Program-made: the position numbers and the translations under genes
Shown here: one piece after another, positions 1,169 through 18,304 of the stretch
Numbering within the stretch: position 1 is the first letter of the stretch
How the letters are laid out: every line of letters begins with the position of its first letter
NCBI RefSeq assembly: GCF_003590145.2
Contig: NZ_CP060436.1
Location: 2,857,001 to 2,921,000 of the forward strand
DNA from: Pseudooceanicola algae
GTDB lineage: Bacteria > Pseudomonadota > Alphaproteobacteria > Rhodobacterales > Rhodobacteraceae
Length of the DNA stretch: 64,000 nt
Direction of reading: 5' to 3'
The notes under the pieces: model-generated
Database searches by the model: none
Told to the model about the DNA's origin: nothing
What the model saw: the letters and a program-made list of their open reading frames with translations, nothing else

Positions 1169-1203
1169 TTGCCCCCGCGCCATGGACCACGGCACGGGGG
1201 CAA
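1169..1203 (-). terminator. Hairpin, probable original secA terminator displaced by the transposon
   Basis: TTGCCCCCGCGCC and GGCACGGGGGCAA form 13-bp arms with one G-T type mismatch around a 9-nt loop. It lies just outside the left transposon end. If the element and one 5-bp duplication are removed, the hairpin falls about 20-55 nt past the secA stop codon. There is no clear U-tract on either strand, so assignment as a terminator is inferred from stem strength and position. Confidence 0.55.
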
Positions 1204-1215
1204 TCTTGCCGGGAT

Positions 1216-1220
1216 ACGTC
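1216..1220. repeat. Target-site duplication, left copy (ACGTC)
   Basis: Five bases immediately outside the TGTA tip at 1,221. They are identical to 18,292-18,296 at the other end. Confidence 0.9.
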
Positions 1221-1368
1221 TGTAGAACTACTTCGAGATTTTCCCAAGCATCGAAAACTCTCAGAAAAAATGCTTGAAATCAAATAGTTGGATTTGCCCC
1301 CAGAGGCGAAACCCTAAGATCTTCCCATGTGACGGCTAAGTTCATGCCAAGGATAGGATTTTCCGGAA
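1221..1368. repeat. Left transposon end with three TnsB-site-like boxes
   Basis: The tip is TGTAGAACTAC. Three related 14-bp boxes follow: GAGATTTTCCCAAG at 1,235-1,248, AAGATCTTCCCATG at 1,316-1,329, and the weaker AGGATTTTCCGGAA at 1,355-1,368. The first begins at nucleotide 15 from the tip, as at the other end. Tn7 ends carry several TnsB-binding sites, three in the left end, so these are the natural candidates for this TnsB. Confidence 0.8.
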
Positions 1369-1433
1369 ACCACACATGAAAAAGGGCCCGCAACGCGGAC
1401 CCCGAGGCGATTCCAGATCTGTAGGTGCGGAGC

Positions 1434-2897
1434 TTACCCTGCGCGGATCGCCGTCACCTCCTTCAACGGCAACAAGACAGACGCCAAGCCGTCTCCGTCA
1501 GGACAGCGGAAGGCCGGTAGCTCGTTGGCAAGAAGAGCCCTCACGACATCGGACGTCGTGCCAATCTTCCGCTGACAGATTGCCCCGACTGGGTGCAGGT
1601 CAATTTGCCCGGCACTTTCTGAATCCGGCAAGGCGGCAAGCTGAGCGAGAAAGGCGTCGAGACTTCGACGCGAGAAGACGACATGGCGAATGGCACCGGG
1701 AGACCCCGCCGGCACCACGGGCTTCAAGACGCCATCCCGATACAGGGCTCTCGCCTGCGAAAAGCTGGCGCCGATGTACTCGTCCAGATCGGCCAGGGGG
1801 ATACCCGTCTTGAAATCCTGCACCAGTTGCGCAATCTCCCTGGCATCGAACCGGATAAGGCCACAGTCGTCCATGCTCGCATCGTGGGGAATATGCCCGA
1901 TCTTCTTGAGCATACGCGCCATGCTGGAGGTCTTGTGACCGAGGGCCTCACCAAGGCTCTGAACGCTGTGGAATCGCCGATATTTGAGCTCCTCACCCAG
2001 GACCTTTGTTCCGGCCTCCAGTACATCGTGTTCGATGATATGGTCCCGCAAGATGCCGAGGAGAGGTCCGGGGTCGCGGGTTTGCCACTGACGGTTCATC
2101 CATTCGTATAGCTTCCCATATTTTGCGAGCGGTCCGGCTTGTGCCGCTTGTGCAGGCGAGGCCTCACGGATCCGATCCAGCGCAGCGACCAGCGCCTCAG
2201 GGCCTTGGGAATAGACCCGGAAGCCCTCCTCCAATGCGGCTTCATGGCGCAGGACCGACAGCCTGTTGGGAGCGATCTTGTGGCCTTCGCGCATGACCAC
2301 CCCAAGGAGCAGCGACGCATCGAGAACCTGCTCCAGCCCCTGTTCATCCAGCCAAGAGTCCCTTTCCGGCACGTTTTGCAGTCGTGCTTCCAGCCACTGC
2401 AGATAGCAGGGCACGGGGTCAGACACAGTATGAGAGACTGACGCCGGAATGATGCCCGTCGCCTCCTGAAGCGTCCTTGCAGGCTTTTCCGACCGCTGCA
2501 GCCAGATGCCATGGCGTGGGCACCTGTGAGCCGCAGCAACGCACCAGATCAGGCGCTGACGCCAGTTGCGGTGTTCGCCGTCCTCGGCGAGGCAGGCAGG
2601 ACAGTACTTGTCCGCCGCGCGCGAAAGGGAGCCTGAATGGAACTGCTCTCCGCGGAACTCCATGCCTTTCCGGATTCCACGCATAGTAACCCTCAGAAGG
2701 TCGGCCTCATCGATCCCGGCAATGGCGGCGAACCGGGAAATGGCCTCGGGACGGCCAAGGGTGAAAGCCTCGCCATTGATCCGCATGTCAGCCAGCATCC
2801 AGTGAAGCGGCTGGCCCGTATGGATCGCGGCGAGGCGCCCGGCGAAGGACATCGCCGTTTCCTGCGTGTCGAGCGTGACATAGGGACGGAGGCGCAT
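1434..2897 (-). CDS. tniQ: TniQ/TnsD-family transposition target selector
   Basis: 487 residues from ATG 2,897. TniQ proteins recruit TnsC to a target and so choose the insertion site. Visible features are the N-terminal RLRPYVTLDTQETAMSFAGRLA, typical of the family, and a zinc-finger pattern beginning KYCPACLAEDGEHRNWR, then LIWCVAAAHRCPRHGI. The length is nearer to TnsD-like selectors that read a fixed chromosomal site than to short TniQs, and it is the only TniQ in the element. The start is set by a TGATG overlap with the tnsC stop; a longer frame exists upstream but would overlap tnsC further. It is the last gene of the operon and lies about 200 bp from the left tip. Given the insertion point, it may recognise the 3' end of secA; this is inference. 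Confidence 0.88.
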   Translation of the reverse strand: MRLRPYVTLDTQETAMSFAGRLAAIHTGQPLHWMLADMRINGEAFTLGRPEAISRFAAIAGIDEADLLRVTMRGIRKGMEFRGEQFHSGSLSRAADKYCPACLAEDGEHRNWRQRLIWCVAAAHRCPRHGIWLQRSEKPARTLQEATGIIPASVSHTVSDPVPCYLQWLEARLQNVPERDSWLDEQGLEQVLDASLLLGVVMREGHKIAPNRLSVLRHEAALEEGFRVYSQGPEALVAALDRIREASPAQAAQAGPLAKYGKLYEWMNRQWQTRDPGPLLGILRDHIIEHDVLEAGTKVLGEELKYRRFHSVQSLGEALGHKTSSMARMLKKIGHIPHDASMDDCGLIRFDAREIAQLVQDFKTGIPLADLDEYIGASFSQARALYRDGVLKPVVPAGSPGAIRHVVFSRRSLDAFLAQLAALPDSESAGQIDLHPVGAICQRKIGTTSDVVRALLANELPAFRCPDGDGLASVLLPLKEVTAIRAG

Positions 2898-3871
2898 CAC
2901 CGGCTCCAGCCCGCCTCTGTAAGAGACACCCGCACGGTGTCCCACGGCGCCTCCGCGAAGGGCGTTGTCTGCATCGCGCCATATTCCCTCGAGAAGACAT
3001 GCCCCGCATCCCGCAGGGTCACCTTGCTGCGCCCCTCCTCCAGAGCGGCCACGAGAATGGTCTTAGCCAGATGGATCGCACGTCCGGGCTCGCCATTCTC
3101 GGCGAAGAGCACGCGGTCGGGCATCGCCTCTCCATCAAGGGAAAGACCCACTTTCTCTGCGCAAAGCTGCATGCTTCGCGCAAAGGTACGTGCCTCCTTG
3201 CTGCCTTCGGCGATGCGGGTAAGCTGGAACCTGGGGAAGCGTCGGTCGGTTTCGGGGTCCGTCATCACCCCCTGCCGGAGCTTGTCGACGCCGGCTGCGA
3301 TGACCGCAACAGGCCAGTCACCCTGCAGCAGGCTCTTGAGCCTCTGGATCGCCCCTTCGACATCGCGGCCCGATCCCTTGCGGAGCAGATGATGTGCTTC
3401 GTCGATGACCAACAGGCGAACCCCGCGTTCACGCATCCGGTGGCGCGCCACGTCCCACGCCTGATCGGCGTTCGCGCGCGAGTTCATATCGAGGTATCCC
3501 AGTTTCTTGGCAATGCGGGACGCGAAGCTCTTGATCGTCGCTTCTGGAGGGACGGTGACGTAGAATGTGTTCCCGTCGTTTTCCCTGTCGGCCAGATGGA
3601 TCATCGGTACTGTGCGCAAGGTTCTCCGGAGCAACGACGATTTGCCGGCACCGGACTCTCCGATAAGCATCAGGCCGCGGGTTTCACCGTTGAGCCGGTC
3701 GATCTTCGGCTTGGGTGTCAGCTGCCCTTCTTTGTCGGTCTTGAACAGACGCCCGAGGCGGGCGATCAGGGCATCATCGCGGTCGAGGCGGACATACCTG
3801 TCCTCCAGCCATTCGATCTTCTCTGGCAGGGATGCATCGGCAGGCAGGGCGGTCATCGTCTTGGTGATCAT
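2897..3871 (-). CDS. tnsC: TnsC/TniB-type AAA+ ATPase, transposition regulator
   Basis: 324 residues. The AAA+ ATPase that forms filaments on target DNA and links TniQ to the TnsA-TnsB transposase. Walker A GESGAGKSS lies near residues 71-79, and Walker B LLVIDEAHHLL near 153-163. The start at 3,871 is chosen because AAGGAACCAAG precedes that ATG; the frame runs 27 codons further upstream with no comparable ribosome site. Its stop overlaps the tniQ start (TGATG). Unlike the other junctions in the operon, about 260 nt separate it from tnsB. Confidence 0.88.
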   Translation of the reverse strand: MITKTMTALPADASLPEKIEWLEDRYVRLDRDDALIARLGRLFKTDKEGQLTPKPKIDRLNGETRGLMLIGESGAGKSSLLRRTLRTVPMIHLADRENDGNTFYVTVPPEATIKSFASRIAKKLGYLDMNSRANADQAWDVARHRMRERGVRLLVIDEAHHLLRKGSGRDVEGAIQRLKSLLQGDWPVAVIAAGVDKLRQGVMTDPETDRRFPRFQLTRIAEGSKEARTFARSMQLCAEKVGLSLDGEAMPDRVLFAENGEPGRAIHLAKTILVAALEEGRSKVTLRDAGHVFSREYGAMQTTPFAEAPWDTVRVSLTEAGWSR

Positions 3872-4135
3872 CTTGGTTCCTTGGATTGAGCATGACTTCT
3901 CCGGTCTCCGGGGCATGGCCACGAAGCTGGGAGGGCACGGTGTTAGGTTCACAGGCTGGGTGACGGGGTCAGGTGGAGCTGTTTGTTCAGGTGAAGTTGG
4001 TCCTTTGCGTTGGCCCTGAGGGGCGTGGATATCGGTGCGGTCGAGTTATGCGTGGGGTGCGAAAGTTGGCAGGCCTGAAGGCGAACTGTTTGCCGTCGGG
4101 AGAAGAAACGACGGAATTCTTCGGTCGCCCCGGCA

Positions 4136-6331
4136 CTATTCCAGCAGGTCTTCATCGTCGGGTCCTTCGGCCGCTTCCAGCGTGGCCATCGTTTCCGGTT
4201 CAGCCGCGGGCTGACTTTCATCCAGAACCTCGTCAGCAAGGAGGTCACGGTACGGTTCGGCAGTGTAGCGGCGCTCCGAAGTATCTATGTGCCGCGCGAA
4301 ATGTGCCTCCGTCAGCTCGACTCCATTTGCCGTCCTCGGGCGCGCGAACAGCCCCTTCGCCAGTTTCAGCGCCTTGGTATGTGCGTCGATGTCGTGGATC
4401 AGCGCGAGGCGGGCCGCCTCTGCTTCAGGGTCCTTGGTTTGACGTTGCTCCAGCCAGACATGAAGGTCGCTTTCATCCTTGCCGATCCAGCGCTCATCAG
4501 TGGCTGGTACGGTGACCCACTCCCCGTTTCCGGCACGCACTTCGATCGCGCCGATGTCCCCGCCCCAATGGCAGATCTCGAGGCGCTCACCTCCATGGGC
4601 GAACCACCTCTGCGTCAGCGCATCGCTTTGGTAGGTGACGTGCATCACCTTCAGCCCGTGCCGCCCGAGGGTCCTGTGAACTCGGGTGCCAAAGGCGAGG
4701 CGCATCTCCCGGTTGGTAATCTGACGAACCGGCATGTGGCTGGTCGCCTCTTCCCAGGCCTGCAACGGGGTCATGCCCAGCCCCTCGTGACGGCGGTTGT
4801 GGTATCCGTCGACGGTCCAGCGGACGAGCCAGCCGAGAAACTCCTCGATGGTCAGCGTGGCACGGGCCGCCGGGTCGTTGTCTCCGCGCTTCACCGGATT
4901 CTCGAAATTCCTGCCCGAGAACCTTTGCAGGAAGGTGCTGTGCAACGTCCTGAAGGTTCTTTCAATGAACGGCTTGAGCCAGGGTTTGCCGGCCGGGCTG
5001 CCGATGTTCGTGATCCCGAGAGAAGCAAGGATGTGGTACGCCTCGTCAGAGACGTAGGGACTGCCTCGATCGAGAACGGCCTCCTCCGGTGCGCCATGCT
5101 GAACCCAGTCAAAGCGGCAGCCGACAGCATCGGAGAGCGGCGTCTTGTCGGTATAGATCATCTCCAGCGTCTGGCGCAGCGTATCCGGGGTTCCCTCCGG
5201 CACGATCTGGAGCGCGAGAAGGCAACGCGTGTGAACATCGATCGCGGCCGAGATGACCACGCGCCTGGCAGCGCCATCAAATCCCAGGGCCACGATCTCG
5301 TGCGGGGCCAGAAGCTTGAAAATCCCGGTCAGCCTCAGAAGAAGCGTCAGGTCGATGGTGTATTCGTCGATCTCCACGCGCTCGAGCGCCCGGTACGTCG
5401 TGATGCCGACCCCCAAGGCATGCATGTCGCGATAGGCTCTGTCGAAGCCGGTCGACCTGATGGCATAGGCCGCGCACCCCAGTCGATCGGCCTGCCGTTT
5501 CACGAATGCCTTGCTGACCCTGTTCGACAGGCTCGGCAGAGGGAAATCGGCGCTGAACCGGCGGGCATTCTCCGCCTGGATCGCAGCAAGGACACTGTCG
5601 TGCAAGGAGCTGATGGATGGACGTTCCATATCGGCCAGATCATCGACCACACCGGCCACGAAATCCGCGAGTTCCGCCGTGTGCCCTGCCTTCCCACCAC
5701 ATCGGCGATAGGCATCGAACAGGCTATCCTCCCCCTTTGTCCGCAGCTTGCGCAGCCAGTTGTAGATCGAGGCGCCCTTGGAGGCAGGGTTGTCGTTCTT
5801 CACCTCGAGCTCGAAGAGGAACGGAGGCCGATTGGCATTCGAGCCGTAGACAGCCCGTTTTCGCCTTCCACGGGTCGAGCGGCCCATTGCCGCAACGAGG
5901 CGAGCATGGGCGGTTCTGGCGCGGGCGACGATAAGTTCCGCATGCTCCTCGAAGTCACGCCTCCGGTGCCCCATCCGGTCCTCCGCGATCAGCTCTTCGG
6001 CCGCGAGGGCACAGGCCTTGCGGACGAGCATGCGAGAGGTTTCCTCATGCGTCCGCAAGTGACGAAGGATGTCGTCGGGATCGGTCTCCATTGCGCGCGG
6101 CCGCGACAGGATAACCAGCTGGCCGTGGCGGTTGTCCGCCTCCACATGTTCGTGCGTCAGCAGCCGGTGCGCACGCTCGGTGATCACGCCGGTTTCGGGA
6201 TCGCTCCATTCCTCCCAGACGACCAAGAAGCCTTCCGGTCTGGCTTCGACGACCGAGCCATGGCGTGGTCCGACGCGGAAATTGCAGCCAACCTCCAGCA
6301 GGTGGTGGCGCTGTACCAAGGAAACTGCCAT
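4136..6331 (-). CDS. tnsB: TnsB-like DDE transposase (Mu/TniA family)
   Basis: 731 residues from ATG 6,331. Retroviral-integrase-fold transposase that binds the element ends and joins them to target DNA. The triad can be read directly: Asp322 in EIDEYTIDL, Asp421 in LDRGSPYVSD and Glu457 in KPFIERTFR. The last two are 35 residues apart, the D,D-35-E arrangement of the superfamily. The C-terminal third resembles the Mu transposase C-terminal domain (for example GWLVRWTVDGYHNRRHEGLG). The start at 6,331 overlaps the tnsA stop as TGATG. The frame stays open 33 codons further, but those codons lie inside tnsA and encode Arg/His-rich sequence not expected of the family. Confidence 0.92.
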   Translation of the reverse strand: MAVSLVQRHHLLEVGCNFRVGPRHGSVVEARPEGFLVVWEEWSDPETGVITERAHRLLTHEHVEADNRHGQLVILSRPRAMETDPDDILRHLRTHEETSRMLVRKACALAAEELIAEDRMGHRRRDFEEHAELIVARARTAHARLVAAMGRSTRGRRKRAVYGSNANRPPFLFELEVKNDNPASKGASIYNWLRKLRTKGEDSLFDAYRRCGGKAGHTAELADFVAGVVDDLADMERPSISSLHDSVLAAIQAENARRFSADFPLPSLSNRVSKAFVKRQADRLGCAAYAIRSTGFDRAYRDMHALGVGITTYRALERVEIDEYTIDLTLLLRLTGIFKLLAPHEIVALGFDGAARRVVISAAIDVHTRCLLALQIVPEGTPDTLRQTLEMIYTDKTPLSDAVGCRFDWVQHGAPEEAVLDRGSPYVSDEAYHILASLGITNIGSPAGKPWLKPFIERTFRTLHSTFLQRFSGRNFENPVKRGDNDPAARATLTIEEFLGWLVRWTVDGYHNRRHEGLGMTPLQAWEEATSHMPVRQITNREMRLAFGTRVHRTLGRHGLKVMHVTYQSDALTQRWFAHGGERLEICHWGGDIGAIEVRAGNGEWVTVPATDERWIGKDESDLHVWLEQRQTKDPEAEAARLALIHDIDAHTKALKLAKGLFARPRTANGVELTEAHFARHIDTSERRYTAEPYRDLLADEVLDESQPAAEPETMATLEAAEGPDDEDLLE

Positions 6332-6999
6332 CACGCGGTTCCTGGGCTGCTGATGATGGAATGCTCGGTGATTGGCTCCTCGTCCGCGACCACGATGATG
6401 CCTGAACGGATCGCGCGGATGACGCTCCACCAGCCGTCACGACCGACAGGCGTCTGGTCAAGGAAATCACGGATGGTCCGAGGTCGTTCCATTCCCGCCA
6501 GTTCGGATCGCACGAGCAGATCCAGTTTGGGGTTCGGGTGCCGCGCCGCATGAAACAGCTTGACCCGAGAAAGGCGGATCGGATCGATGTTCCGTTCCGT
6601 GACCACGTGGACATGATCTGCCATCGCTGGAACCGCGACATGGCGGATTACCTGCATCGCGTGCTGAAACTTGTAGGTTCTGGCAACCTGCTCGGGCTTC
6701 ACCGAGATCGCGATCCGCTGGCCCGACGCCAATGTCAGCCGCAGATCGAACCAGTACGCGGTTGCCGCAACGCCTTGCGTCCGTGCCATGATCGGGGCGA
6801 GCTGCTCTTCCAGGTCGTGGAAGTCGGTGCGGTAGATGCAGCAGAGCGCGGCCTTGTATTCAAGCAGGCTGCCAAAGCCCAGGGCACGGGACTTGCCCGC
6901 AGCATTCAGGAAGGTCAGCTGGCCGACGAAGTGGTATTTGGACGCCCTTGGAATAGCGCGCCTGGCGCGGGATGGAAGATAGGTATCGTCGAAGCTCAT
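6331..6999 (-). CDS. tnsA: TnsA-like endonuclease subunit of the transposase
   Basis: 222 residues from ATG 6,999, preceded by AGAAAGAGA; an in-frame TTG 24 nt upstream is possible but has no good ribosome site. TnsA cuts the 5' ends of the element, turning TnsB joining into cut-and-paste. The restriction-enzyme-like fold is visible in the order GSLLE (Glu47), LEEQ, YWFDLRLT (Asp85) and ISVKP (Lys101), matching the Glu-Asp-Gln-Lys arrangement of Tn7 TnsA. First gene of the operon, overlapping tnsB by TGATG. A 9-bp palindrome lies 34 nt upstream and may be its operator. Confidence 0.85.
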   Translation of the reverse strand: MSFDDTYLPSRARRAIPRASKYHFVGQLTFLNAAGKSRALGFGSLLEYKAALCCIYRTDFHDLEEQLAPIMARTQGVAATAYWFDLRLTLASGQRIAISVKPEQVARTYKFQHAMQVIRHVAVPAMADHVHVVTERNIDPIRLSRVKLFHAARHPNPKLDLLVRSELAGMERPRTIRDFLDQTPVGRDGWWSVIRAIRSGIIVVADEEPITEHSIISSPGTA

Positions 7000-7032
7000 G
7001 TTATCTCTTTCTGCTGGCCACAACTCTCCCGG

Positions 7033-7056
7033 CGGCTGAAACGGACATTTCAGCCG
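7033..7056. promoter_or_regulatory. Palindrome upstream of tnsA, possible operator or leader hairpin
   Basis: CGGCTGAAA and TTTCAGCCG are perfect 9-bp arms around CGGACA, with further partial pairing outside. It lies 34 nt before the tnsA ATG, where a regulator of the transposition operon would bind. No cognate regulator is identified. Confidence 0.4.
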
Positions 7057-7130
7057 GGGGATGCGACGTGGTTCTGGGTGAGGCAGCGCGTTTGCCCGCG
7101 TCTGCCGTCTACTGCATTTTACGTAGGCGC

Positions 7131-7155
7131 AAAATTTTCAGCCCATCAGGGGCTG
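7131..7155 (-). terminator. Possible terminator of the 170-residue orphan
   Basis: Read on the minus strand, CAGCCC and GGGCTG pair around a 5-nt loop and are followed by AAAATTTT. It starts about 35 nt past the stop of the upstream gene. Just before it is an A/T mirror, GAAAAAAA-4-TTTTTTTC. The short stem makes the call tentative. Confidence 0.35.
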
Positions 7156-7189
7156 GCGGGAAAAAAATTCATTTTTTTCAGGGCCTAAG

Positions 7190-7702
7190 CTACTTGAAAC
7201 ACGATTTTTCTTGGCATACGGGCCAGGCTCTTGCCAACCGGCTCAGCTCAGGGATCAGGTCATCGTAGCCGGCCTTGAAAGCCAGATCGAAGACTTGCTG
7301 AGTACGTCGGGCGATACATTTCAGGGCAACGTGAATCGGTAAGCTGATGACACCTTTGTCGACGGCGACAAGGTATCCGGGAAGGACATCGTCCAGATAT
7401 TCCCCCGGGAGCTTGGGCACGAAGGCGGGCCCGAGCTTGTACCACCGTGACAACGTCCGGGCCCACTCTCGGTCCGGCGACAAGTGTATCAGAGTGGATG
7501 TCTGGATCCGCCGGTCACCCAACACGGGATGACCGGTGACGCTGCCGACAAGGAACACTTCCCGACCCCGCATTGCAGCAGTCCAATTGTCGAGGAAAGG
7601 CGCTTCCAGTTCGGAACGATCTGGATCCACACCAAGGCAAACAGCGCGGAAAGCAGTCAGGTACATTTCGACAAGTTTTCGAGGAGACGGTGAAGAGTGC
7701 AT
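7190..7702 (-). CDS. Uncharacterised protein between transposition and defence modules
   Basis: 170 residues from ATG 7,702; an in-frame TTG four codons earlier is an alternative. No catalytic motif, signal peptide or membrane segment is visible. Landmarks are KLVEMYLTAFRAVCLGVDP near the start, REVFLVGSVTGHPVLGDRRI, then EWARTLSRWYKLG and a C-terminal IARRTQQVFDLAFKAGYDDL. The two EWxR/RWY segments and basic patches suggest a small soluble, possibly nucleic-acid-associated protein. I believe similar proteins recur in rhodobacterial mobile elements (a DUF6634-like family), but I cannot confirm this. It stands alone, with about 190 bp to tnsA and almost 600 bp to the helicase. Confidence 0.6.
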   Translation of the reverse strand: MHSSPSPRKLVEMYLTAFRAVCLGVDPDRSELEAPFLDNWTAAMRGREVFLVGSVTGHPVLGDRRIQTSTLIHLSPDREWARTLSRWYKLGPAFVPKLPGEYLDDVLPGYLVAVDKGVISLPIHVALKCIARRTQQVFDLAFKAGYDDLIPELSRLARAWPVCQEKSCFK

Positions 7703-8299
7703 GTTCAGGTCCAAGCATGGAACAACGCCCCCGGCGCCATTGGAAATACACCGGGTGGGTTAGATCAGTTTCAGGATGAACGCGCGTGTTCTGAGAAGCC
7801 GCATAGGTCGGTCCGCAGTTGCAAGGAAGTCGAAAGTATTGCGAAAACAGGGACTTTCGACACTTTCCATGGGCGAATTACCCAAGACTGTCTCGTCAGC
7901 ATGCCGATCCAGATGGTCTTTTCGCACGGAGTTTCGGCGTAACTTTTTCTCGGCCGTGCAGAAGCCAAACTCGCATGGCCGCTTCGGCAACTACCCGCGG
8001 TTGTCGAAAGAGTCAGATAGAGCTCCTTATAGGTGCCCTTGAGAATCATGCGCCGGAGGCGCGCTCACCTCCCGCTGGTCTCGTCATCACACCGTGTTCT
8101 CAGTCTTGACAGACTGCATCTATGCCACCGGCGATAAGGAACCTCTTCTACCGCAATCGGATCGCGTTGTGACGAACTCGGAAATGACCGTCAGAAGAAG
8201 CATCACCGGAAGACTCTGTGGCTCTGGATGCCGAGAAAATGAGGGACCGATAGGTAAGCCCTAGCGTGCCCTGCTCCGAATGCCGTCATGGACAACCCA
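7703..8299. other. 597-bp gene-free stretch inside the transposon
   Basis: Only short overlapping frames without family resemblance or good ribosome sites occur. One clear structure is the inverted repeat GTCGAAAGT/ACTTTCGAC at 7,829-7,861 (9-bp arms, 15-nt gap). A third GTCGAAAG occurs near 7,998. It separates the 170-residue orphan from the end of the restriction-modification operon and may be the scar of lost cargo. Confidence 0.5.
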
Positions 8300-10297: not shown

Positions 10298-10509
10298 TTT
10301 TCGACGACGTGTCGCGCCAGGTTGATACCTTTTCGAACTTCAGTCTGATAGCTCTTCGGAAGCCCGGCCCGGATAACGATTTCCTCCAGTGGCATGCCCT
10401 TCAGGCTATCCGCATAGCGGATGCCGAACAGATGAATGGATACGGCCTTCCCTGTAGCCGGATCATCATACATGGCGCGAAGCGCCTTGGCTGCGTCTTC
10501 CAGTCTCAT
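10294..10509 (-). CDS. Small DNA-binding-like protein of the defence operon
   Basis: 71 residues: starts LEDAAKALRAMYDD, continues KAVSIHLFGIRYAD and EEIVIRAGLPKSYQTEVRKG, and ends NLARHVVEK. The helical middle part and the EIVIRAGLPKSYQTEVRKG segment look like a helix-turn-helix, but no named family is certain. It sits 2 nt after the methyltransferase stop and overlaps the helicase start by ATGA, so it is translated with both. A small helical protein beside a RelE-like domain suggests an antitoxin-like or adaptor role, which is inference only. Confidence 0.7.
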   Translation of the reverse strand: MRLEDAAKALRAMYDDPATGKAVSIHLFGIRYADSLKGMPLEEIVIRAGLPKSYQTEVRKGINLARHVVEK

Positions 10510-10511
10510 AC

Positions 10512-13397
10512 CTAAACCCCCAACACCTTCATCACCTCATCGCCAAGGTGGTTAATCACCTTCACCGCCACTCGCCCAGACTTCGGACGGGCGAACGGAC
10601 GCGAGACCGTCCGCTTCAAAGACTCCCACGCCTCCTCGTCCACTTCCCCCTTCAGCGTGGTCTTCAACTGCTTGTAGGGGATCTCGGCGCCCGGGAAATA
10701 GGCATGGCGGACGAAGAACGATTCCTCGTTGTAATCCGTGTCGATGAACCAGCAAGCGATGTCGTCGGGTTCAGAGGACACAACCTTACCGCTCGCAGGC
10801 TTGAAGATGTCGACGCCCAGCAATTCGATCCGCAGTTTGTCACCGTCTTGCCGAACCTCGATGTCCGGCTCGCCGAAGACGACGAACAGGTTCCCGCCAC
10901 CCGCCTTCAGCTCGTCCGCCATGTGCAGGTCGGGGTTCATCCGGGCCTGAAGAATCGGCAGACGGCCAAGCTTGCGAAACTCGGCGGTGTGGGCGTCGTA
11001 GTTGAAGGCGCAGGTGATGAGGATGTCGAACCCAGCATCCACCGCCTCGCGCGCTGCGGCGGTCAGGTCGGCGCGTTGCAGGGTGCCGTACTCCGGGCCG
11101 ATCAGGATACCGGCGCGGCGTTCGATGTCGCCCTCCATGTACCGCCCCTCGGCCGCCAGCCATTCACCCGGCCAGGGCTGAAGCTGGGTGAACTCTACCT
11201 TGTCGGCCTTGTCGGCCTGCTGGACACCGGCCTTGCGCAGATTGTCGAGGATGGCAGCGCGGTAGTTGTCGGCTTCGGTGGCGGCCTTGCTGCGCTTGCC
11301 CTGGGCGGCGTCGACCTCCTCGATCAGCTCGCCATGTTCGTTTACCGCCTGGGTGCGGTGGGGCGAGAGGCTTTCGACGGTGAAGGGGCCGGCGACGCGG
11401 ACGCGTTTCCTGTCCTCGTAGGGCTTGTCGTAGAGGTATTCGTGATCGGCCTTGGCGGCGATGCTGGCGTCGATCTCTTTCTGGCGGGCGATGCGGGCCT
11501 CCCAGAACGCGCGCAGCGCCGTCTTGGCCACGTCGGGCCAGTGGTCGGGGGCCTCGCGCGGGATTTCCCATTCCATGAAGCCGTTTGCCGGGGCCATCTC
11601 TTCGCTGGGCAATTCGACCACACCGCTGGCGGTGAAGTCGATCTTCTTGCTCTTGCGGCCGCCGGTTTGGACCTCAAACGGCGTGGAGTGGCCTTGCAGT
11701 GCGGTGTTGAGCGCTGCGCGGGCGTCTTCGACGGAGGGCTGCATCGCCTCCCAGATCTTGTCGATCTCGGTGTTGTTGGCGATACTTTTCAGCGTGATGT
11801 GGGGCACGCGCTGGTAGACGAAGCCGTGGCGGATGTCGTTGTAGGTGTCGGCGGTCGAGGGGCTTCGCCGCGTGACCTCGGCCTCCTTCTTCTGCCCGGC
11901 CTCAGAGTCCTTGAGCAGATACCAGGGGTACTTCGCGCCCATGATCCGCGCGCGGGCAAGCGCGAGGGCCACCCGGGAGGTGTCGATGGTGATCCAGCGC
12001 CGCCCCCATTGCTCGGCGACGTAAGCCGTTGTGCCGGAGCCGCAAGTGGGATCGAGTACGAGGTCGCCAGGATCGGTGCTCATGAGGAGGCAGCGTTCAA
12101 TGACCTTGGTGGAGGTTTCAACGACGTATCTTTTTTCGCTTATATAACCTGCGCGATTTGTGTCCGCCCAAACATTGGAAATTGGTTCGATTTGAAAGTC
12201 TGAGAGGTAACGAACGTACCGAATACTATTCGTCGAAGGATCAATGCGCTCAGATTGATCAAGTCTCCGCATTCCTTGGAGGTGTGTTTTCCAGTGAGAG
12301 TTTTTCGCCGGATCATAGAATCGTCCAAAAGCTTGGAAAGACTTTGAGCCTTCTGGTGTTGCTCCTTGTGAAGATAGGTTATCTTGGTAGTAGGGATCAA
12401 TATTCTCGCCAGCGTTGACCCTTCGAGCGACTTCATCCTTTCCCAAGTTCGCTTTAGCGCCATCCTCCAATCGCGCGCGGGAATGGCTCCAGCCGCCACC
12501 GCCTCGCAATTCACGTATTTGATAAGGCTGTCGATACTTAATTTTCGTCTTGTCCTTTGAACACCAGAGGACAAGGTCGAAGATATTTCCGAGCCCAAGC
12601 GTTGACTGCCCCCCAGTAGTAACAAAGGGGATCATATTGACGAAATTCTCCTCCCCAAAAACCTCATCCATCAGAGCCCGCACCCGGTGGACGTTCTCGT
12701 CTCCGATCTGGACGAAGCACGACCCGCTCTCGGTCAGCAGCTCCCGCGCCACTACCAGCCGGTCGCGCAGGTATTGCAGGTAGGAATGGATGCCGTCGCG
12801 CCAGGTGTCGCGAAAGGCCTTCACCTGCTCGGGCTCGCGGGTCAGATGCTCCAGCTTGCCGTCCTTCACATCGCGCGAGGTGGTGGACCACTGGAAGTTG
12901 GAGTTGAACTTGATGCCATAGGGCGGGTCGATATAGATCGCCTGTACCTGGCCCTTGAGCCCCTCGCGCTCGGCCAGCGACGCCATGACCTGCAGCCCGT
13001 CGCCCAGGATCATCCGGTTCGACCACTTGCGCTGGTGGCGGTAGAACTCGATCTCCGCCTCGCGGTCGTCGTCCGTGATGCCGAAATGGTCAAACAGGTC
13101 CGCGCCGCTGCCTTCGCCGTTGCGCTTGTTGCCGGCGCGCAAGTCCTCGATGATCGCCTTGGGGTGGACCTGTTCCTGCAGGTAGATCGGCGGTGCGTCG
13201 ACGGTCACCGCCTCCTGGTCGATGTCCTTGCCGCGCCAGATCAGCTGCGGGTCAAGGTCCGGGTTGCGCTGCTGGTAGGTGACCTTGATCGGGCGGGCAT
13301 CTTCGGGATCCATCATCGGCGCAAGTTCCGGCGTGGGAATGTTCACCCGGCTGTCGTCATGGGTGATGGGCTCGATCGGGGTTTTCTTGTTGGTCAT
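10512..13397 (-). CDS. Beta-class site-specific DNA methyltransferase (type III Mod-like), extended C-terminus
   Basis: 961 residues. Methyl-transfer motif IV IDPPYGIKFNSNF (DPPY at 157-160) comes first and the SAM-binding motif I DPTCGSGT follows near 447. This order marks beta-class N6-adenine methyltransferases, including type III Mod. Residues about 250-420 between them correspond to the target recognition domain and are unusually AT-rich (hand count 45% G+C over 12,181-12,420, against clearly higher flanks). After motif I there are about 500 further residues, much more than in classical Mod proteins, rich in charged segments and ending RPFARPKSGRVAVKVINHLG. The start overlaps the upstream nuclease gene (ATGA). 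Probably protects host DNA from the operon's nuclease; the recognition sequence is unknown. Confidence 0.9.
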   Translation of the reverse strand: MTNKKTPIEPITHDDSRVNIPTPELAPMMDPEDARPIKVTYQQRNPDLDPQLIWRGKDIDQEAVTVDAPPIYLQEQVHPKAIIEDLRAGNKRNGEGSGADLFDHFGITDDDREAEIEFYRHQRKWSNRMILGDGLQVMASLAEREGLKGQVQAIYIDPPYGIKFNSNFQWSTTSRDVKDGKLEHLTREPEQVKAFRDTWRDGIHSYLQYLRDRLVVARELLTESGSCFVQIGDENVHRVRALMDEVFGEENFVNMIPFVTTGGQSTLGLGNIFDLVLWCSKDKTKIKYRQPYQIRELRGGGGWSHSRARLEDGAKANLGKDEVARRVNAGENIDPYYQDNLSSQGATPEGSKSFQAFGRFYDPAKNSHWKTHLQGMRRLDQSERIDPSTNSIRYVRYLSDFQIEPISNVWADTNRAGYISEKRYVVETSTKVIERCLLMSTDPGDLVLDPTCGSGTTAYVAEQWGRRWITIDTSRVALALARARIMGAKYPWYLLKDSEAGQKKEAEVTRRSPSTADTYNDIRHGFVYQRVPHITLKSIANNTEIDKIWEAMQPSVEDARAALNTALQGHSTPFEVQTGGRKSKKIDFTASGVVELPSEEMAPANGFMEWEIPREAPDHWPDVAKTALRAFWEARIARQKEIDASIAAKADHEYLYDKPYEDRKRVRVAGPFTVESLSPHRTQAVNEHGELIEEVDAAQGKRSKAATEADNYRAAILDNLRKAGVQQADKADKVEFTQLQPWPGEWLAAEGRYMEGDIERRAGILIGPEYGTLQRADLTAAAREAVDAGFDILITCAFNYDAHTAEFRKLGRLPILQARMNPDLHMADELKAGGGNLFVVFGEPDIEVRQDGDKLRIELLGVDIFKPASGKVVSSEPDDIACWFIDTDYNEESFFVRHAYFPGAEIPYKQLKTTLKGEVDEEAWESLKRTVSRPFARPKSGRVAVKVINHLGDEVMKVLGV

Positions 13398-14323
13398 TGG
13401 TCTACATCCAGTGCTGCGGACAGCGCCGCGAGGTATATTTGCCGCCGTTCTTCTAGCCAGCGGAGCATGGCAGGCCAGTTGGCCCTGTCCTTGTAGGAAA
13501 GGTCATGGCGGTCGCCGAAGACATGGCCGAAGCGGGTGGGGTCGAAAAGCTCTGCTTCAAGCTCCGCGGCCAGCGGTTCCGCCATGGGGCCTAGCCGCGT
13601 GGCAGCGGATTGCTTGTCGGCACCTCGGGCCCCCCCCACATAGATGCCGCACTGGCGCTCTCCTATCCAGACGGAGACCCAGATCTTTTCGCCGGGCAGT
13701 TGGGAGTAGCTGTTCCAGGCGCGAGTGGGCTTGAAGCCCTCTTCGAGGACCTCGGGGAAGGTATCAATGTAGGTGTCCCAGAAGGCTTGTCGCAGGTCGG
13801 AAAGTTCGTCCGTTGCCGTGCTTGTCTCCTTCTTCCTCGACATCACGCGCCGCTCCCAGCCGTTCGGCTTTTCCACGACTTCGAAGATGGGCGCGAAGGG
13901 GCTGTCGCCGATGCGGACGACGCGCGCCTTGACGGCGAAGAAGGAAAATCCGTCCGAAGTGTGTTCGTTCAGCCAGCGGATGGCCGAAAGGTGCGGTTCG
14001 CGGAAGGCAGGGGCGATCCAGACGACGGTCTGCGCCTCGAGCCCCGCGAGGTAGGTCATGATCTGCCCAAGGTGGGTGTGATCGGTGGTTTCAAGCTGGT
14101 TCTCGATCAGGACGGTGGTGTCGTCCATCGGGTTCCGGGCGAGGATATCGGCAGAAAAGCTTTCCACCGCGACCTCTGTGCCGGTCAATTCCAGCGGGAT
14201 TCCGATGACCTCTGACAGGTGGTCGATGTTCTGAGAAAGCCAGGGAGTAAACTGGTGCGCCTCATGTGGCCAGGCATCGCGAAGGGGAAGGTCCACGAGG
14301 CGGCCGAATTGGATATCTGTCAT
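13394..14323 (-). CDS. PD-(D/E)XK-like nuclease with C-terminal DUF4268-like domain
   Basis: 309 residues from ATG 14,323, placed by an ATGA overlap with the gene upstream. The N-terminal half has the pattern VESFSADILARN, then TVLIENQLETTDHTHLGQI, the Asp...Glu-x-Gln layout of restriction-endonuclease-like folds. The C-terminal half, from about residue 180 (LRQAFWDTYIDTF to the tail LRWLEERRQIY), matches the separate 142-residue protein encoded just upstream: both have L-R-x-x-F-W-x-x-Y near the start and a W-P-x-x-x-x-W segment near the end. This supports the DUF4268 assignment. It may act as a second nuclease or a recognition subunit. Function untested. Confidence 0.75.
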   Translation of the reverse strand: MTDIQFGRLVDLPLRDAWPHEAHQFTPWLSQNIDHLSEVIGIPLELTGTEVAVESFSADILARNPMDDTTVLIENQLETTDHTHLGQIMTYLAGLEAQTVVWIAPAFREPHLSAIRWLNEHTSDGFSFFAVKARVVRIGDSPFAPIFEVVEKPNGWERRVMSRKKETSTATDELSDLRQAFWDTYIDTFPEVLEEGFKPTRAWNSYSQLPGEKIWVSVWIGERQCGIYVGGARGADKQSAATRLGPMAEPLAAELEAELFDPTRFGHVFGDRHDLSYKDRANWPAMLRWLEERRQIYLAALSAALDVDQ

Positions 14324-14748
14324 GATGGTTTCAGAACCTCGGAGAGTACCTTGCGGTAAAGGAGCACCGATTTGTCGAACCAGTCGATGACGATAGGCCA
14401 TCGGCTTGGAAGCGAAAAGTCGGCCTTGGGATTGGCTTTGCGGAAGTAGTAAGGGTGCTTGGCATCCCCTTCATGTTTGTATGCCGTCGACAGTTTCTTT
14501 CTTAGCGCGGCTTCATGTGGCGCAAGCCGAGGGCCAGCCGTATCCACCGGATCATTGATGCGCCCGCGCAAAAAGACTGTCGCACCACCTGTCTGCCGGA
14601 TTCCCAAAGACAGGATAACAGCATTGTCTTCCGTCATCGGGACCCAGAGGTTGCTGTCGAACTTCGGCTTCTCGTCGACGACCTTTGTATTTTGCAGGTA
14701 CTGGGTCCAGAACTTCCGGCGAAGGTCCTCTATCGTCCTGTCGCTCAT
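14320..14748 (-). CDS. Stand-alone DUF4268-like protein
   Basis: 142 residues from ATG 14,748, set by an ATGA overlap with the restriction helicase stop; a longer frame runs back into that gene and is not used. The sequence begins SDRTIEDLRRKFWTQYLQN and ends WPIVIDWFDKSVLLYRKVL. The whole protein matches only the C-terminal half of the next gene; there is no PD-(D/E)XK part. It could be an inhibitor, a hetero-oligomer partner or a duplicated recognition module. Confidence 0.7.
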   Translation of the reverse strand: MSDRTIEDLRRKFWTQYLQNTKVVDEKPKFDSNLWVPMTEDNAVILSLGIRQTGGATVFLRGRINDPVDTAGPRLAPHEAALRKKLSTAYKHEGDAKHPYYFRKANPKADFSLPSRWPIVIDWFDKSVLLYRKVLSEVLKPS

Positions 14749-17700
14749 GCGGGCACCTTTCCAAGCATGTCGTTGATCGCCTGGTCCAGCCCCGGCCCAA
14801 AGTCGTTCACGTCGCGCAGTTCGGCAAAGCCCCAGTGACCATAGGTGCCAAGGCGGTTGACGGCCGGAATCCACTTCGCGCGTGTCGTTTCTGCCTTAAG
14901 CATGGCGTCGTGGCCACGGTATCCCTTGACCTCGACGATGAGGGTCGTCGGCTGGGGCGCGTCCAGACGAATGAGAAAGTCCGGTCGATAGGCCCGGGGC
15001 TCCCCTTCCTTGAGGTAGGGGACGTCGAAGCCGAGGTTGTGGTTCTTGGCATAGGAGAGAACCGCGGGATGGTCTTCGATACAGGCGGCCAGCTTGTCCT
15101 CCCAATCGCTGTCGGTGATGATCCAGTTGAGGTGACTGCGGTCGGGCCGTGGCCAGTAGCGCGTGGCGACAGAAGTGTTGAACTGGACGCCCAGGGTCGA
15201 ACCTTCCGGATTGTATGGATCCAGCACGGCGCGCAGCACGCTAACCCCTCGGACCGGGTCCGTCAGGGCATTGAAGATGACATCACAGACCTCGTCGGCA
15301 AGTTCCCGGTAGAGCAGTTGGGCAGGTACGGTGTCGCCTTTGCATTCGAAATGCCCTTCCTTGAGCCATTGCAGGACGATCCGCTTGGCCGGTATGAGCA
15401 GGTGCATCTTCGGCGCGCCATTCTCGTCGCGTAACTTCTCGAAGATCATGTGCTTGGCGACATTGTATGCGATGGTCGAGAGACGCGCGGTTCTCAGATA
15501 ATCCAGAGAGAGCCTTTCGCTCTCTCCCACGATGCCTTGCATTGTGACCAGGGTCGCGGAGACCTTCTCGGGGGTCAGGACGTATTTTTCGGTGTTGGAG
15601 AAGTCTACTTCGAGCTTATCGGAAGGAAGATCGACGACGTAGCCCTGGACGCGGGGAAAGTTTATTTCGAGGTGATCGCGCTCGGGTGACACGGCGCGGA
15701 CCTGGATGACTTGACGCGGCTGCTGCGGCGGCGCGACGCGAGCCTTGTCGGAGAAGTTCAGTCCGTCGATCCCCATGATGTCGGCGTATTCCGTACGGAA
15801 CAGTTTCGTGTCGGGGTCAATGTCATAGGACAGCCGGCGCAGCGCTCGGCCGATGACCTGCTCGCATATGAGCTGGGTCCCGAATGCACGCAGTCCGAGG
15901 ATGTGGGTTACGTTGTTCGCGTCCCATCCTTCGGTCAACATGGAGACAGATACAACGCAGCGCACCTGCTCACCCAAACGGTCCTTCTTGCCGACGGTAT
16001 TCATGACTTCTCGCAGGATGTCGGCATCGGTCAGGTCTTCGTGCGCGCCTCGTTCGGCCTGTTCTCGTCGGAAGGCCTCGATCTCCTCTGCATGTGTATC
16101 GCGGAAAGATTTATCGATATCTCCTCCGGCTTCGAGCGTCGCGCTGTCGATCAGGACAGTCCGAGGCCGGGTGAGCCTTTCGCCATCGGTGGCGAAGTTC
16201 GAGAACAGCTCGCACTTCCCGGGGACTGTTTCGAGCGTACCATCCGGGTTCTCGCGCTCGTACCCGGACATGTAGTCCCTGAGCAGTTCCGAGTTCGTCG
16301 TGTTGTTGCACACCACGATGAACACCGGGGGGATACCGACGCCTTCCTTCTTCCACAGATTGAAGGTTTTCTCGTAGTGACCGTAAAGAGCATCGATCGC
16401 AGTCTTGAGCGGTATCGGCAGGCTCTGCGGATCGGGCTTCACCTTCCCGCGCGCCTTCTTCGGCATCTTCTTACCGATCTCTTTCCAGAGATCGCGGTAC
16501 AGGGGCACCTCCCCGCTTGGAAGATTGTCCGCAACGGGCACTCGTGGCAGCTTCACGATCCCGCACTCGATGGCATCCATCAGAGAAAAGTCAGAGACGA
16601 CCCATGGGAAAAGCGTCCCCTCCACCCAACCCGAGCCCGCCAAGAAGAACGGCGTCGCGGAAAGATCATAGACGATCTGCACGCCGATCTGACGTTTTGC
16701 GGCTTCCAGACCAGAGATCCACAAGCGGGCTGCCTCAGCGTTTTCCTCGGCTTCCTTCTTTTCCTCACCAGTCAGACGCTCGGTTTCTGTGGCAGCCCGC
16801 TCCCTGTAGCAGTGATGCGCCTCGTCGTTGACGACGTTGATCTTCCCCAAGCCCATCAACTCGGGCATGACGCGCTTGACCATCTGCCCTTCGGTCTCGA
16901 GCGTCTTCATCTTATGCCCATGTCCTTCGAGGGCGGACCGAGTGCCTTTGGCGAGCTGCAAAGTCTCGCGCTGTTTGAAGGCGTGATAGTTCGTCAGGAC
17001 GATCTTCGCCCGTTGCATATCCTGCATCAGGTCAGTTGGTACCAAATTGATGCGAGTGTAATAATTGTTGGCATCGTTTGGCAAAAGCACCCGCAGACGA
17101 TCCTTAATCGTGATCCCCGGCGTGACGATTAGGAAGCCACGAGAGTAAGATCTGGAGTTCGGGCTGCGAACTGCATTGAGCGTTTGCCAGGCAATCAACA
17201 TGGCCATGACAGTGGTCTTGCCGGCACCCGTCGCCAGCTTCATCGCCATGCGGAAGAGGTCAGGGTTGGCCTCGGCATTCGCGGCCTCAAGCCTTGTTCG
17301 GAAACGCTTGCCCCGCGGCCCAAGTTTCGGCGCGACCTCTGCTAGGAAAATCGCGGTTTCGACTGCCTCTAGCTGGCAGAAGAACGGTCGGATAACTTGG
17401 GTTTCATCCTTCTGCAGGGCACGCCAGTGTTGAAGCAGTCGCTGGGTCGTTGGCGTTACCTGCCAGTCGTTCGGATTCGGAAGGGCACGCCAGCTATCGA
17501 CCTGGCTGCGCAATTCGTTGACGAACTCTGTCACATTATAGGCCATTTCCTGGGTTTCGAGCCCAGCCTCATTCAGACCCAGTTCCGGCTGTTGGCCGGA
17601 TCTCTTCTTCACGCTCTTGGCTTTTGGCATGGCAGAAACGAGATCCGATCTGCGTCGGCTTCTCACGATTTGATCGGTGGGCCGACCATCCGCGTCCAAT

Positions 17701-17789
17701 TCCCAATGTTGATCTGGATTGAAATAAGGGGAATTAAGAATCGGCTTTTCAAAAAAGGACACGGGCTGCCTCACAATGCTTTTCTTCAA
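14745..17789 (-). CDS. Type III-like restriction endonuclease (DEAD/DEAH helicase plus C-terminal nuclease)
   Basis: 1014 residues. N-terminal PILNSPYFNPDQHWELD and RSRRRSDLV are signatures of the BPTD_3080-type restriction family. Superfamily 2 helicase: Walker A KLATGAGKTTVM near 184-195, DEAH box VVNDEAHHCYRE near 320, second RecA lobe with VSVSMLTEGWDANNVTHILG and the QVIGRALRR motif. Near 935-955 the C-terminus has YRPDFLIRL, then LIVEVKGYRG, a PD-(D/E)XK nuclease. Together this gives an ATP-driven translocase that cuts DNA, like Res of type III systems. The frame starts at TTG 17,789; a GTG five codons in is an alternative, and neither has a strong ribosome site. First gene of the operon. 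Confidence 0.88.
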   Translation of the reverse strand: MKKSIVRQPVSFFEKPILNSPYFNPDQHWELDADGRPTDQIVRSRRRSDLVSAMPKAKSVKKRSGQQPELGLNEAGLETQEMAYNVTEFVNELRSQVDSWRALPNPNDWQVTPTTQRLLQHWRALQKDETQVIRPFFCQLEAVETAIFLAEVAPKLGPRGKRFRTRLEAANAEANPDLFRMAMKLATGAGKTTVMAMLIAWQTLNAVRSPNSRSYSRGFLIVTPGITIKDRLRVLLPNDANNYYTRINLVPTDLMQDMQRAKIVLTNYHAFKQRETLQLAKGTRSALEGHGHKMKTLETEGQMVKRVMPELMGLGKINVVNDEAHHCYRERAATETERLTGEEKKEAEENAEAARLWISGLEAAKRQIGVQIVYDLSATPFFLAGSGWVEGTLFPWVVSDFSLMDAIECGIVKLPRVPVADNLPSGEVPLYRDLWKEIGKKMPKKARGKVKPDPQSLPIPLKTAIDALYGHYEKTFNLWKKEGVGIPPVFIVVCNNTTNSELLRDYMSGYERENPDGTLETVPGKCELFSNFATDGERLTRPRTVLIDSATLEAGGDIDKSFRDTHAEEIEAFRREQAERGAHEDLTDADILREVMNTVGKKDRLGEQVRCVVSVSMLTEGWDANNVTHILGLRAFGTQLICEQVIGRALRRLSYDIDPDTKLFRTEYADIMGIDGLNFSDKARVAPPQQPRQVIQVRAVSPERDHLEINFPRVQGYVVDLPSDKLEVDFSNTEKYVLTPEKVSATLVTMQGIVGESERLSLDYLRTARLSTIAYNVAKHMIFEKLRDENGAPKMHLLIPAKRIVLQWLKEGHFECKGDTVPAQLLYRELADEVCDVIFNALTDPVRGVSVLRAVLDPYNPEGSTLGVQFNTSVATRYWPRPDRSHLNWIITDSDWEDKLAACIEDHPAVLSYAKNHNLGFDVPYLKEGEPRAYRPDFLIRLDAPQPTTLIVEVKGYRGHDAMLKAETTRAKWIPAVNRLGTYGHWGFAELRDVNDFGPGLDQAINDMLGKVPA

Positions 17790-18209
17790 TCAACCAGCGG
17801 AGTGCCCCGTTTGCAATAGGTTGCGAAATGGCGTGCCACGGAAGGATCCGGCTGTTGCCTCACTTTTTTCTCGCCGGAGGTTGCCTGCTGTTCAGGCGCA
17901 ATGTTGGGGTGGGCCTTCCCGACAAGCGTTTATGCGCTCAGCTGTCACCAGGTCGACGCTACGCAATGTATATCTCGCCCGGATGATAGAGGCTGCATTC
18001 TCGATGATGAACCGGGGAAATATGCTTGGTCTGTAGGGCAACCCTTCTAAAGCCGCTTAGCGACAGGAAGGTCTGATTCAGGGAACTGCTTTGTTGCCGT
18101 TCCGACGAACCGCCCGAAGGCTGCCAGTTTGCGACGAAGTTGCTGCAAGTACTGGGCTTATTGCCTTGACGACCATGCATCTCAAGACAGACGATGTTCC
18201 CAGATATAG

Positions 18210-18234
18210 GTAGGGCGCCCATTGGGCGCCCTAC
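18210..18234. repeat. Perfect 11-bp inverted repeat near the right transposon end
   Basis: GTAGGGCGCCC and GGGCGCCCTAC pair around ATT. It lies 57 bp inside the right tip and just past the inner TnsB-like box. The stem is strong, but no T-run follows on either strand. It could block read-through from secA into the transposon, replacing the displaced hairpin, or act as a protein site. Confidence 0.6.
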
Positions 18235-18242
18235 ATGTAGAT

Positions 18243-18291
18243 CTTGGGAAAATCTTAGCCTTCCACGGGAAAAACTCAGGTGTCCCTTACA
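18243..18291. repeat. Right transposon end with two TnsB-site-like boxes
   Basis: Read inward (minus strand) the end starts TGTAAGGGACACC. GAGTTTTTCCCGTG lies at 18,277-18,264 and AAGATTTTCCCAAG at 18,256-18,243. The second matches the first left box in 13 of 14 bases. The outer box starts at nucleotide 15 from the tip, exactly as at the left end. The boxes are closer together than on the left, an asymmetry also known in Tn7. Confidence 0.82.
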
Positions 18292-18296
18292 ACGTC
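18292..18296. repeat. Target-site duplication, right copy (ACGTC)
   Basis: Five bases directly after the right tip, identical to the left copy. Eight bases separate it from the secA stop codon. Confidence 0.9.
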
Positions 18297-18304
18297 ACGG
18301 CCTG

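Follow-up and report, generated by a model that had tools for sequence, protein, structure and literature searches.

The window analysed here, 64,000 nucleotides of the Pseudooceanicola algae genome (contig NZ_CP060436.1, positions 2,857,001 to 2,921,000), carries a Tn7-like transposon, hereafter E1, lying just past the stop codon of secA. We favor the possibility, and think it fairly probable, that a single TniQ protein acting as TnsD directs E1 to the 3' end of secA, where TnsC and TnsAB would insert it past the stop codon. Relatives of E1 are found at the 3' end of another gene, ndufs4, and E1 appears to be a transposon that has changed its landing site in nature. The structure of E1, the point of its insertion, the occurrence of a like right end at secA in another genus and the nesting of E1 among ndufs4-sited elements are all read directly from sequence. 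The ends of the element are as follows.

1221..18291, no strand assigned: whole Tn7-like element E1, 17,071 bp (placed by tips, duplication and the near-identical Thioclava tips)
1216..1220, no strand assigned: target-site duplication ACGTC, left copy
18292..18296, no strand assigned: target-site duplication ACGTC, right copy, on the secA side
1221..1365, plus strand: left end, TGTA tip and box-like repeats at 1237, 1291, 1318 and 1357, presumably bound by TnsB
18246..18291, minus strand: right end, TGTA tip and two box-like repeats (18275 and 18254), presumably bound by TnsB

In its build, E1 is an ordinary Tn7-like transposon. It begins with TGTA at 1221, closes with TACA at 18291 and is flanked by ACGTC on both sides. 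A preliminary description of this DNA had placed a complete element at exactly these bases, with the same duplication, and its boundaries are correct, as the closest relative, an element on a Thioclava plasmid, has near-identical tips and a 5-bp duplication of its own. The gapless alignment of the two E1 tips reported there is also seen: over 25 nt, 14 positions are identical (at TGTA, GAG and TTTTCCC), a level attained by 0.25% of random window pairs (200,000 draws). By itself this is modest support for the ends, and the strength of the assignment comes from the comparison with the Thioclava relative. The exact 12-mer GATTTTCCCAAG occurs twice in the whole window, once at each end of E1 (1237-1248, plus strand; 18243-18254, minus strand). 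The box-like repeats are GATTTTCCC (1237), GATTTGCCC (1291), GATCTTCCC (1318) and GATTTTCCG (1357) at the left end and, on the minus strand, GTTTTTCCC (18275) and GATTTTCCC (18254) at the right; the earlier count of two boxes at the right end stands, and the three given for the left become four, the fourth being the weakest. Both E1 and the Thioclava element show the TGT/ACA tips, the several end boxes and the 5-bp duplication expected of a Tn7-like element.

The named genes of E1 all lie on the minus strand, those for transposition towards the left end:

1434..2945, minus strand: tniQ, TnsD-like single target selector of up to 503 aa (PF06527, E 4e-15)
2897..3952, minus strand: tnsC, TniB-type AAA ATPase, start probably 3871 (PF05621, E 4e-25)
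4136..6331, minus strand: tnsB, DDE transposase, 731 aa from the ATG at 6331 (phmmer to solved TnsB chains)
6331..7023, minus strand: tnsA-like endonuclease, start probably 6999 (by position; 64% identical to the Thioclava protein)

All four open reading frames are open throughout, and the element is structurally complete and possibly active, as had been proposed. The claim of an intact tnsA, tnsB, tnsC and tniQ set holds directly for three of the genes. TniQ (PF06527) and TnsC (PF05621, TniB) score above the Pfam cutoffs. CPAC at 115 and CPRH at 142 are likely zinc ligands of TniQ, and a profile of the clade's TniQ proteins matches the solved TniQ 8fcu weakly (E 0.0009). TnsC has a Walker A motif, GESGAGKS, at residue 98, and its alignment with the Thioclava protein begins at residue 28. 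By phmmer, TnsB matches the solved PseTnsAB (E 2e-25) and Tn6677 TnsB (E 1e-14), while its PF00665 and PF09299 matches are weak and sub-threshold. The catalytic residues previously listed as D322, D421 and E457 are right for the ATG at 6331, 33 codons downstream of the start of the longest open reading frame, in which they are D355, D454 and E490. The TnsA identity of the fourth protein is supported only indirectly, through its homologues in Thioclava and in a second element of the same genome (E2), which match PF08722 at E 0.017 and 7e-5, respectively, both below the curated cutoff; the E1 protein itself has no TnsA match in Pfam or the Protein Data Bank (PDB). By eye it contains putative E..D..K residues of the TnsA type.

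The surroundings of E1 suggest that its insertion was directed at secA:

18305..21025, minus strand: secA, 3' end towards the E1 right end, presumed attachment site
1..1068, minus strand: left-flank gene, PBP-like, running off the window; it adjoins secA in G018
1170..1202, no strand assigned: strong hairpin left of E1 (fold of 1155-1212, z -5.7)

The gene that we take to be secA was named from its sequence. The right tip of E1 lies 13 nt beyond its stop codon, the duplication counted in. In a genome of the same genus (G018), secA is directly followed by a homologue of the window's left-flank gene (by eye from translations), so the insertion of E1 split the interval between these two genes. 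The empty site that the preliminary description had anticipated is thus seen at the level of gene order; the single ACGTC is not recovered, the intergenic sequence being too diverged. A scan for the 3' motif of secA with TGTA and a TTTNCC box after it, a pattern that would miss other box types at secA, gave two matches in a collection of 84,980 species. In Poseidonocella sp. HB161398, an E1-type right end with both boxes and the hairpin lies 11 nt past secA in the same orientation. A fragment of a type I restriction enzyme (PF11867) comes after it, and judging from its surroundings this right end looks like a remnant. The other match (L167, Rhodobacteraceae F11138) was judged to be due to chance, as neither a second box nor a hairpin was seen by eye. 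Close relatives sought through TniQ alone among the contigs of the genome collection gave 33 pattern stretches, none of them confirmed, and no right-end sequence was seen in the viral contigs.

On the alignments made here, the clade to which E1 belongs homes to ndufs4. We aligned the 3' ends of ndufs4 in 23 rows, 22 from genomes chosen for clade or near-clade TniQ matches and one from the window genome's own E2 site. A transposon right end follows the stop codon in 18 of them (E2 and G606 included), at a distance of 3-7 nt in the 17 rows measured, with variant tips in G565 (TATA) and G602 (TGTT). No right end was seen in the remaining five (G595, G540, G361, G566, G231), whose TniQ proteins are more remote: those of G361 and G231 are 28-30% identical to that of E1, and those of G595, G540 and G566 score 480-502 bits against the profile. 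Of the 22 genomes, 9 have tniQ and ndufs4 on one contig in the same orientation, and there the distance from the ndufs4 3' end to the tniQ beyond it is 5-57 kb. The NDUFS4-like homologues of G280 and Thioclava match Pfam NDUS4, and on four more Thioclava plasmids right-end or hairpin matches adjoin an annotated 'ETC complex I subunit'.

The closest intact relative of E1 is the element on plasmid p2 of Thioclava sp. 'Guangxiensis' (CP155823.1), which is inserted 3 nt past a plasmid-borne ndufs4. Its left tip, TGTAGAACTACTTTGAGTTTTTCCC, is identical to that of E1 at 23 of 25 positions (counted by eye), its right tip is TGTAAAACTAACCTGAGTTTTTCCC and its duplication is GAGGG. Boxes and hairpin are also alike, and identity to E1 is 64% for TnsA, 69.9% for TnsB, 65% for TnsC and 53% for TniQ. 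The two elements differ in that the Thioclava one sits at the plasmid-borne ndufs4, where it is part of a tandem insertion, and carries different cargo. E2 is more distant. Found by TnsB and TniQ searches of the window genome (44% and 42% identical to E1, respectively), it spans about 37.1 kb (G000:C1:3505612-3542753; left tip L044:10613, right tip L096:7754) and its right end directly adjoins, on the 3' side, the gene for a complex I NDUFS4-like protein. E2 resembles E1 in tns gene order, in a DUF6634 gene adjoining tnsA and in the right-end hairpin; it differs in its ndufs4 site, in the divergence of its TnsB and TniQ, in its box type (ATCGGGGCAAAG) and in its left tip, TGAA, with the duplication ACCTC. 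Another right end, identical to that of E2 over the aligned stretch, lies directly left of the E2 left tip, which indicates that elements stack at the ndufs4 site.

In a TniQ tree with three outgroups, E1 groups with Thioclava (support 100/99) inside a clade with equal support (100/99) whose other 15 members are labelled ndufs4-sited, right end and tniQ being on one contig for 8 of the 15. An earlier tree without Thioclava placed E1 in the same way with weaker support (85/80). Because the E1 TniQ nests inside the ndufs4 group, ndufs4 is likely the ancestral site and secA a derived one. TniQ is also more diverged than TnsABC between E1 and Thioclava; in a control pair of ndufs4 elements, E2 and G280, identity is 64% (TnsA), 66% (TnsB), 61% (TnsC) and 59% (TniQ). 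By thirds, the TniQ proteins of E1 and Thioclava are 62/48/49% identical, and five ndufs4 control pairs give 61/66/52, 67/69/64, 75/82/86, 53/67/71 and 67/71/62. It is in the middle third that E1 departs from the controls (48 versus 66, 69, 82, 67 and 71).

A plausible scenario explaining these observations is that E1 is a cut-and-paste transposon in which the single TniQ, serving as TnsD, would bind conserved codons at the secA 3' end and recruit TnsC, upon which TnsAB would insert the element just past the stop codon with its right end towards the gene and a 5-bp duplication. In attTn7, according to the accessible part of PMC2918618, TnsD footprints from +23 to +58 relative to the insertion point and entry is about 20 bp past the stop codon; by analogy, the conserved secA codons would lie where TnsD footprints. 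The ends of ndufs4 and secA may share a likeness, GGC-N3-GGC-N-AGAA-N-TTC, that would correspond to codons for Gly-X-Gly-X-X-Phe lying equally far from the insertion point in the two genes. Our further suggestion is offered tentatively, as a possibility that we would not put at even chances: the TniQ of the E1 lineage moved from ndufs4 to secA, perhaps by way of this pre-existing likeness, so that two sister transposons now share one genome, each at its own housekeeping gene, and the right-end hairpin serves as a carried replacement terminator. The switch may have been caused by the changed middle and C-terminal parts of TniQ.

Several points weigh against this account. Only two secA cases are known here, E1 and Poseidonocella, and both genomes also carry an E2-type right end at ndufs4. 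The secA pattern was found in none of 393 other genomes of the family (the window genome is the sole match among 394), and no right end was seen by eye at 21 other secA loci of the same genus (about 100-150 nt past secA). In Poseidonocella, (i) a search of 66 kb for a left end turned up only the right end itself and two chance-level matches; (ii) no tns gene was evident by eye in the 10 kb past the right end, TnsB not having been searched for; and (iii) the contig has no TniQ, the only TniQ matches in the genome being two adjoining pieces on another contig, flanked by an E2-type tip. With respect to the tree, the ndufs4 link is presumed for 7 of the 15 TniQ proteins, whose right end is on another contig (G097, G225, G027, G534, G606, G602, G608), the tree software flagged a meeting of long outgroup branches, and the TniQ branch is longer in E1 (0.77) than in Thioclava (0.43). 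For TnsABC there is a single control pair, in which the C-terminal third of TniQ (52%) is close to the E1-Thioclava value (49%).

Both genomes with a right end at secA also have ndufs4 occupied by an E2-type right end, so secA might be the second choice. TniQ would then still be an ndufs4 selector that falls back on secA, a look-alike (pseudo-att) site, once another element occupies and protects ndufs4. We regard this as unlikely, if worth weighing. The secA end matches the majority ndufs4 sequence GGCTACGGCGAGAATTTC at 13 of 18 positions, 58 nt from the tip (the ndufs4 block starts 55-59 nt from the tip), a match reached in 63 of 20,000 random 40-nt zones for a motif chosen after looking, and the best of ten weight-matrix sub-windows at secA ranks 25 of 127,962 positions. 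Scored over the whole ndufs4 block, however, secA comes no higher than rank 694 of 127,796, and by eye no more than 11 of 18 positions agree between the ndufs4 and the secA of the window genome itself. The divergence of the E1 TniQ from its ndufs4-sited sister, greater than that of TnsABC, also speaks against this reading, as does the tandem insertion at ndufs4 in Thioclava. That E1 inserted without targeting and came to lie beside secA by chance is very improbable: intact ends and a 5-bp duplication would look the same, but a second E1-type right end occupies the same spot in the same orientation in another genus, secA is spared and the geometry at ndufs4 is mirrored. We give hardly any credence to E1 being of the Tn5053/Tn402 type, with TniA/B/Q and targeting of plasmid res sites, which the TniB match of TnsC might suggest. 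Such elements have a TniR resolvase and are not known to have TnsA; no resolvase is among the nine E1 proteins scanned, a TnsA-like gene is present and conserved, and insertion is at the ends of housekeeping genes.

E1 has further likenesses to known systems. As in Tn7 (TnsABC plus TnsD, attTn7 at glmS), there are a TnsA-like protein, TnsB, TnsC and a TniQ/TnsD protein, the duplication is of 5 bp and the right end points towards the 3' end of an essential gene, just past its stop codon; unlike Tn7, E1 targets secA, not glmS, and has a TniB-type TnsC. The tns genes of Tn7 are at the right end; those of E1 lie at the end remote from its target gene. The nine proteins scanned (Pfam, NCBIfam, PADLOC) include no TnsE and none named as a Cas protein or TnsF, a guide RNA not having been searched for; the PADLOC TniQ model that matched bears the label CAS-I-F associated. 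Tn6022 and CRISPR-associated transposon (CAST) elements share the TnsABC/TniQ core with E1, which lies away from the comM, guaC, yciA, ffs, rsmJ and tRNA sites listed for them in the accessible part of PMC11406308. A full-text search, mostly outside subscription papers, found no paper on secA or ndufs4 (or a complex I subunit) as a Tn7-like site, and the main texts of PMC10293859, PMC8649781 and PMC11406308, apart from their supplements, contain no word beginning with 'secA' or 'NADH'. As far as the papers searched show, the Tn7-like build is known and both homing sites, the apparent switch and the shared right-end hairpin are new. The way in which TniQ/TnsD proteins come to read new DNA targets matters for protein-guided DNA insertion. 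Its site, together with a sister element in the same genome, makes E1 well suited as a natural test of target switching; E1 and its Thioclava sister sit at two gene ends with near-identical tips, TnsC and TnsB 65-70% identical and a larger TniQ difference outside the N-terminal third, and chimeras of their TniQ proteins could map target recognition directly.

The shared hairpin lies just inside the right end:

18205..18239, no strand assigned: right-end hairpin TAGGGCGCCCAnTGGGCGCCCTA (fold z -6.7; common to the right ends of E2, Poseidonocella and Thioclava)

The palindrome GGGCGCCCAnTGGGCGCCC, with small variations, was seen by eye just inside 8 of 11 right ends picked for alignment, with both box types represented; in G606 its place is taken by another sequence that also pairs, and in G280 and G341 there is no clear one. 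Fold z values are -6.7 for E1, -4.6 for Poseidonocella, -5.5 for Thioclava and -2.8 for E2. The insertion of E1 separates secA from the strong hairpin at about 1170-1202, possibly the displaced secA 3' hairpin, and the right-end hairpin may be a carried replacement for the displaced terminator.

The remaining genes of E1, apart from a DUF6634 gene, are predicted restriction/defence-type cargo:

7190..7714, minus strand: DUF6634 gene, frequent passenger of related elements (PF20339, E 2.5e-15)
8300..10297, minus strand: UvrD-like helicase
10512..13397, minus strand: type III-like DNA methyltransferase
13394..14401, minus strand: PADLOC candidate-defence family PDC-S11
14745..17789, minus strand: BPTD_3080-family restriction endonuclease (NCBIfam, 1205 bits)

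Tn7-like elements commonly carry restriction genes, according to the accessible part of PMC8649781. The DUF6634 gene adjoins tnsA in both E1 and E2 and lies inside several relatives too. It has 13 matches in 8 of 35 searched genomes, eight in or near tns loci (E1, E2, near a third TnsB, G433, G606, G156, G280, G565) and five elsewhere, and with this distribution we rejected it as a core transposition gene; full-text search found no paper on it. The window genome holds two more remote TnsB-like and two remote TniQ-like matches, pairwise 17-25 kb apart (G000:C1:1989150-2008680 and 2325201-2351432), with a DUF6634 gene near the first of these TnsB genes. A 2,248-nt perfect inverted repeat (L044:6589-8836 and 17753-20000) flanks E2 on the left with its first copy and has its second within E2; it carries amidohydrolase-like and LysR-like genes (named by eye). 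The element of G340 has 5-bp flanks CTGAT and CTGAG (L080:3403-3407 and 10082-10086), an imperfect duplication. On another Thioclava plasmid (L184, NZ_CP149516.1:122687-153700), ndufs4, restriction genes and TniQ have an annotated type I-E cas set close by (cas1, 2, 3, 5-7, casA, casB). A DUF6880 gene is repeatedly the first inside the right end, with both box types (L044:9002-10507, L096:6150-7655, L183:25114-26547, L186:29074-30513, L187:1639-3072).

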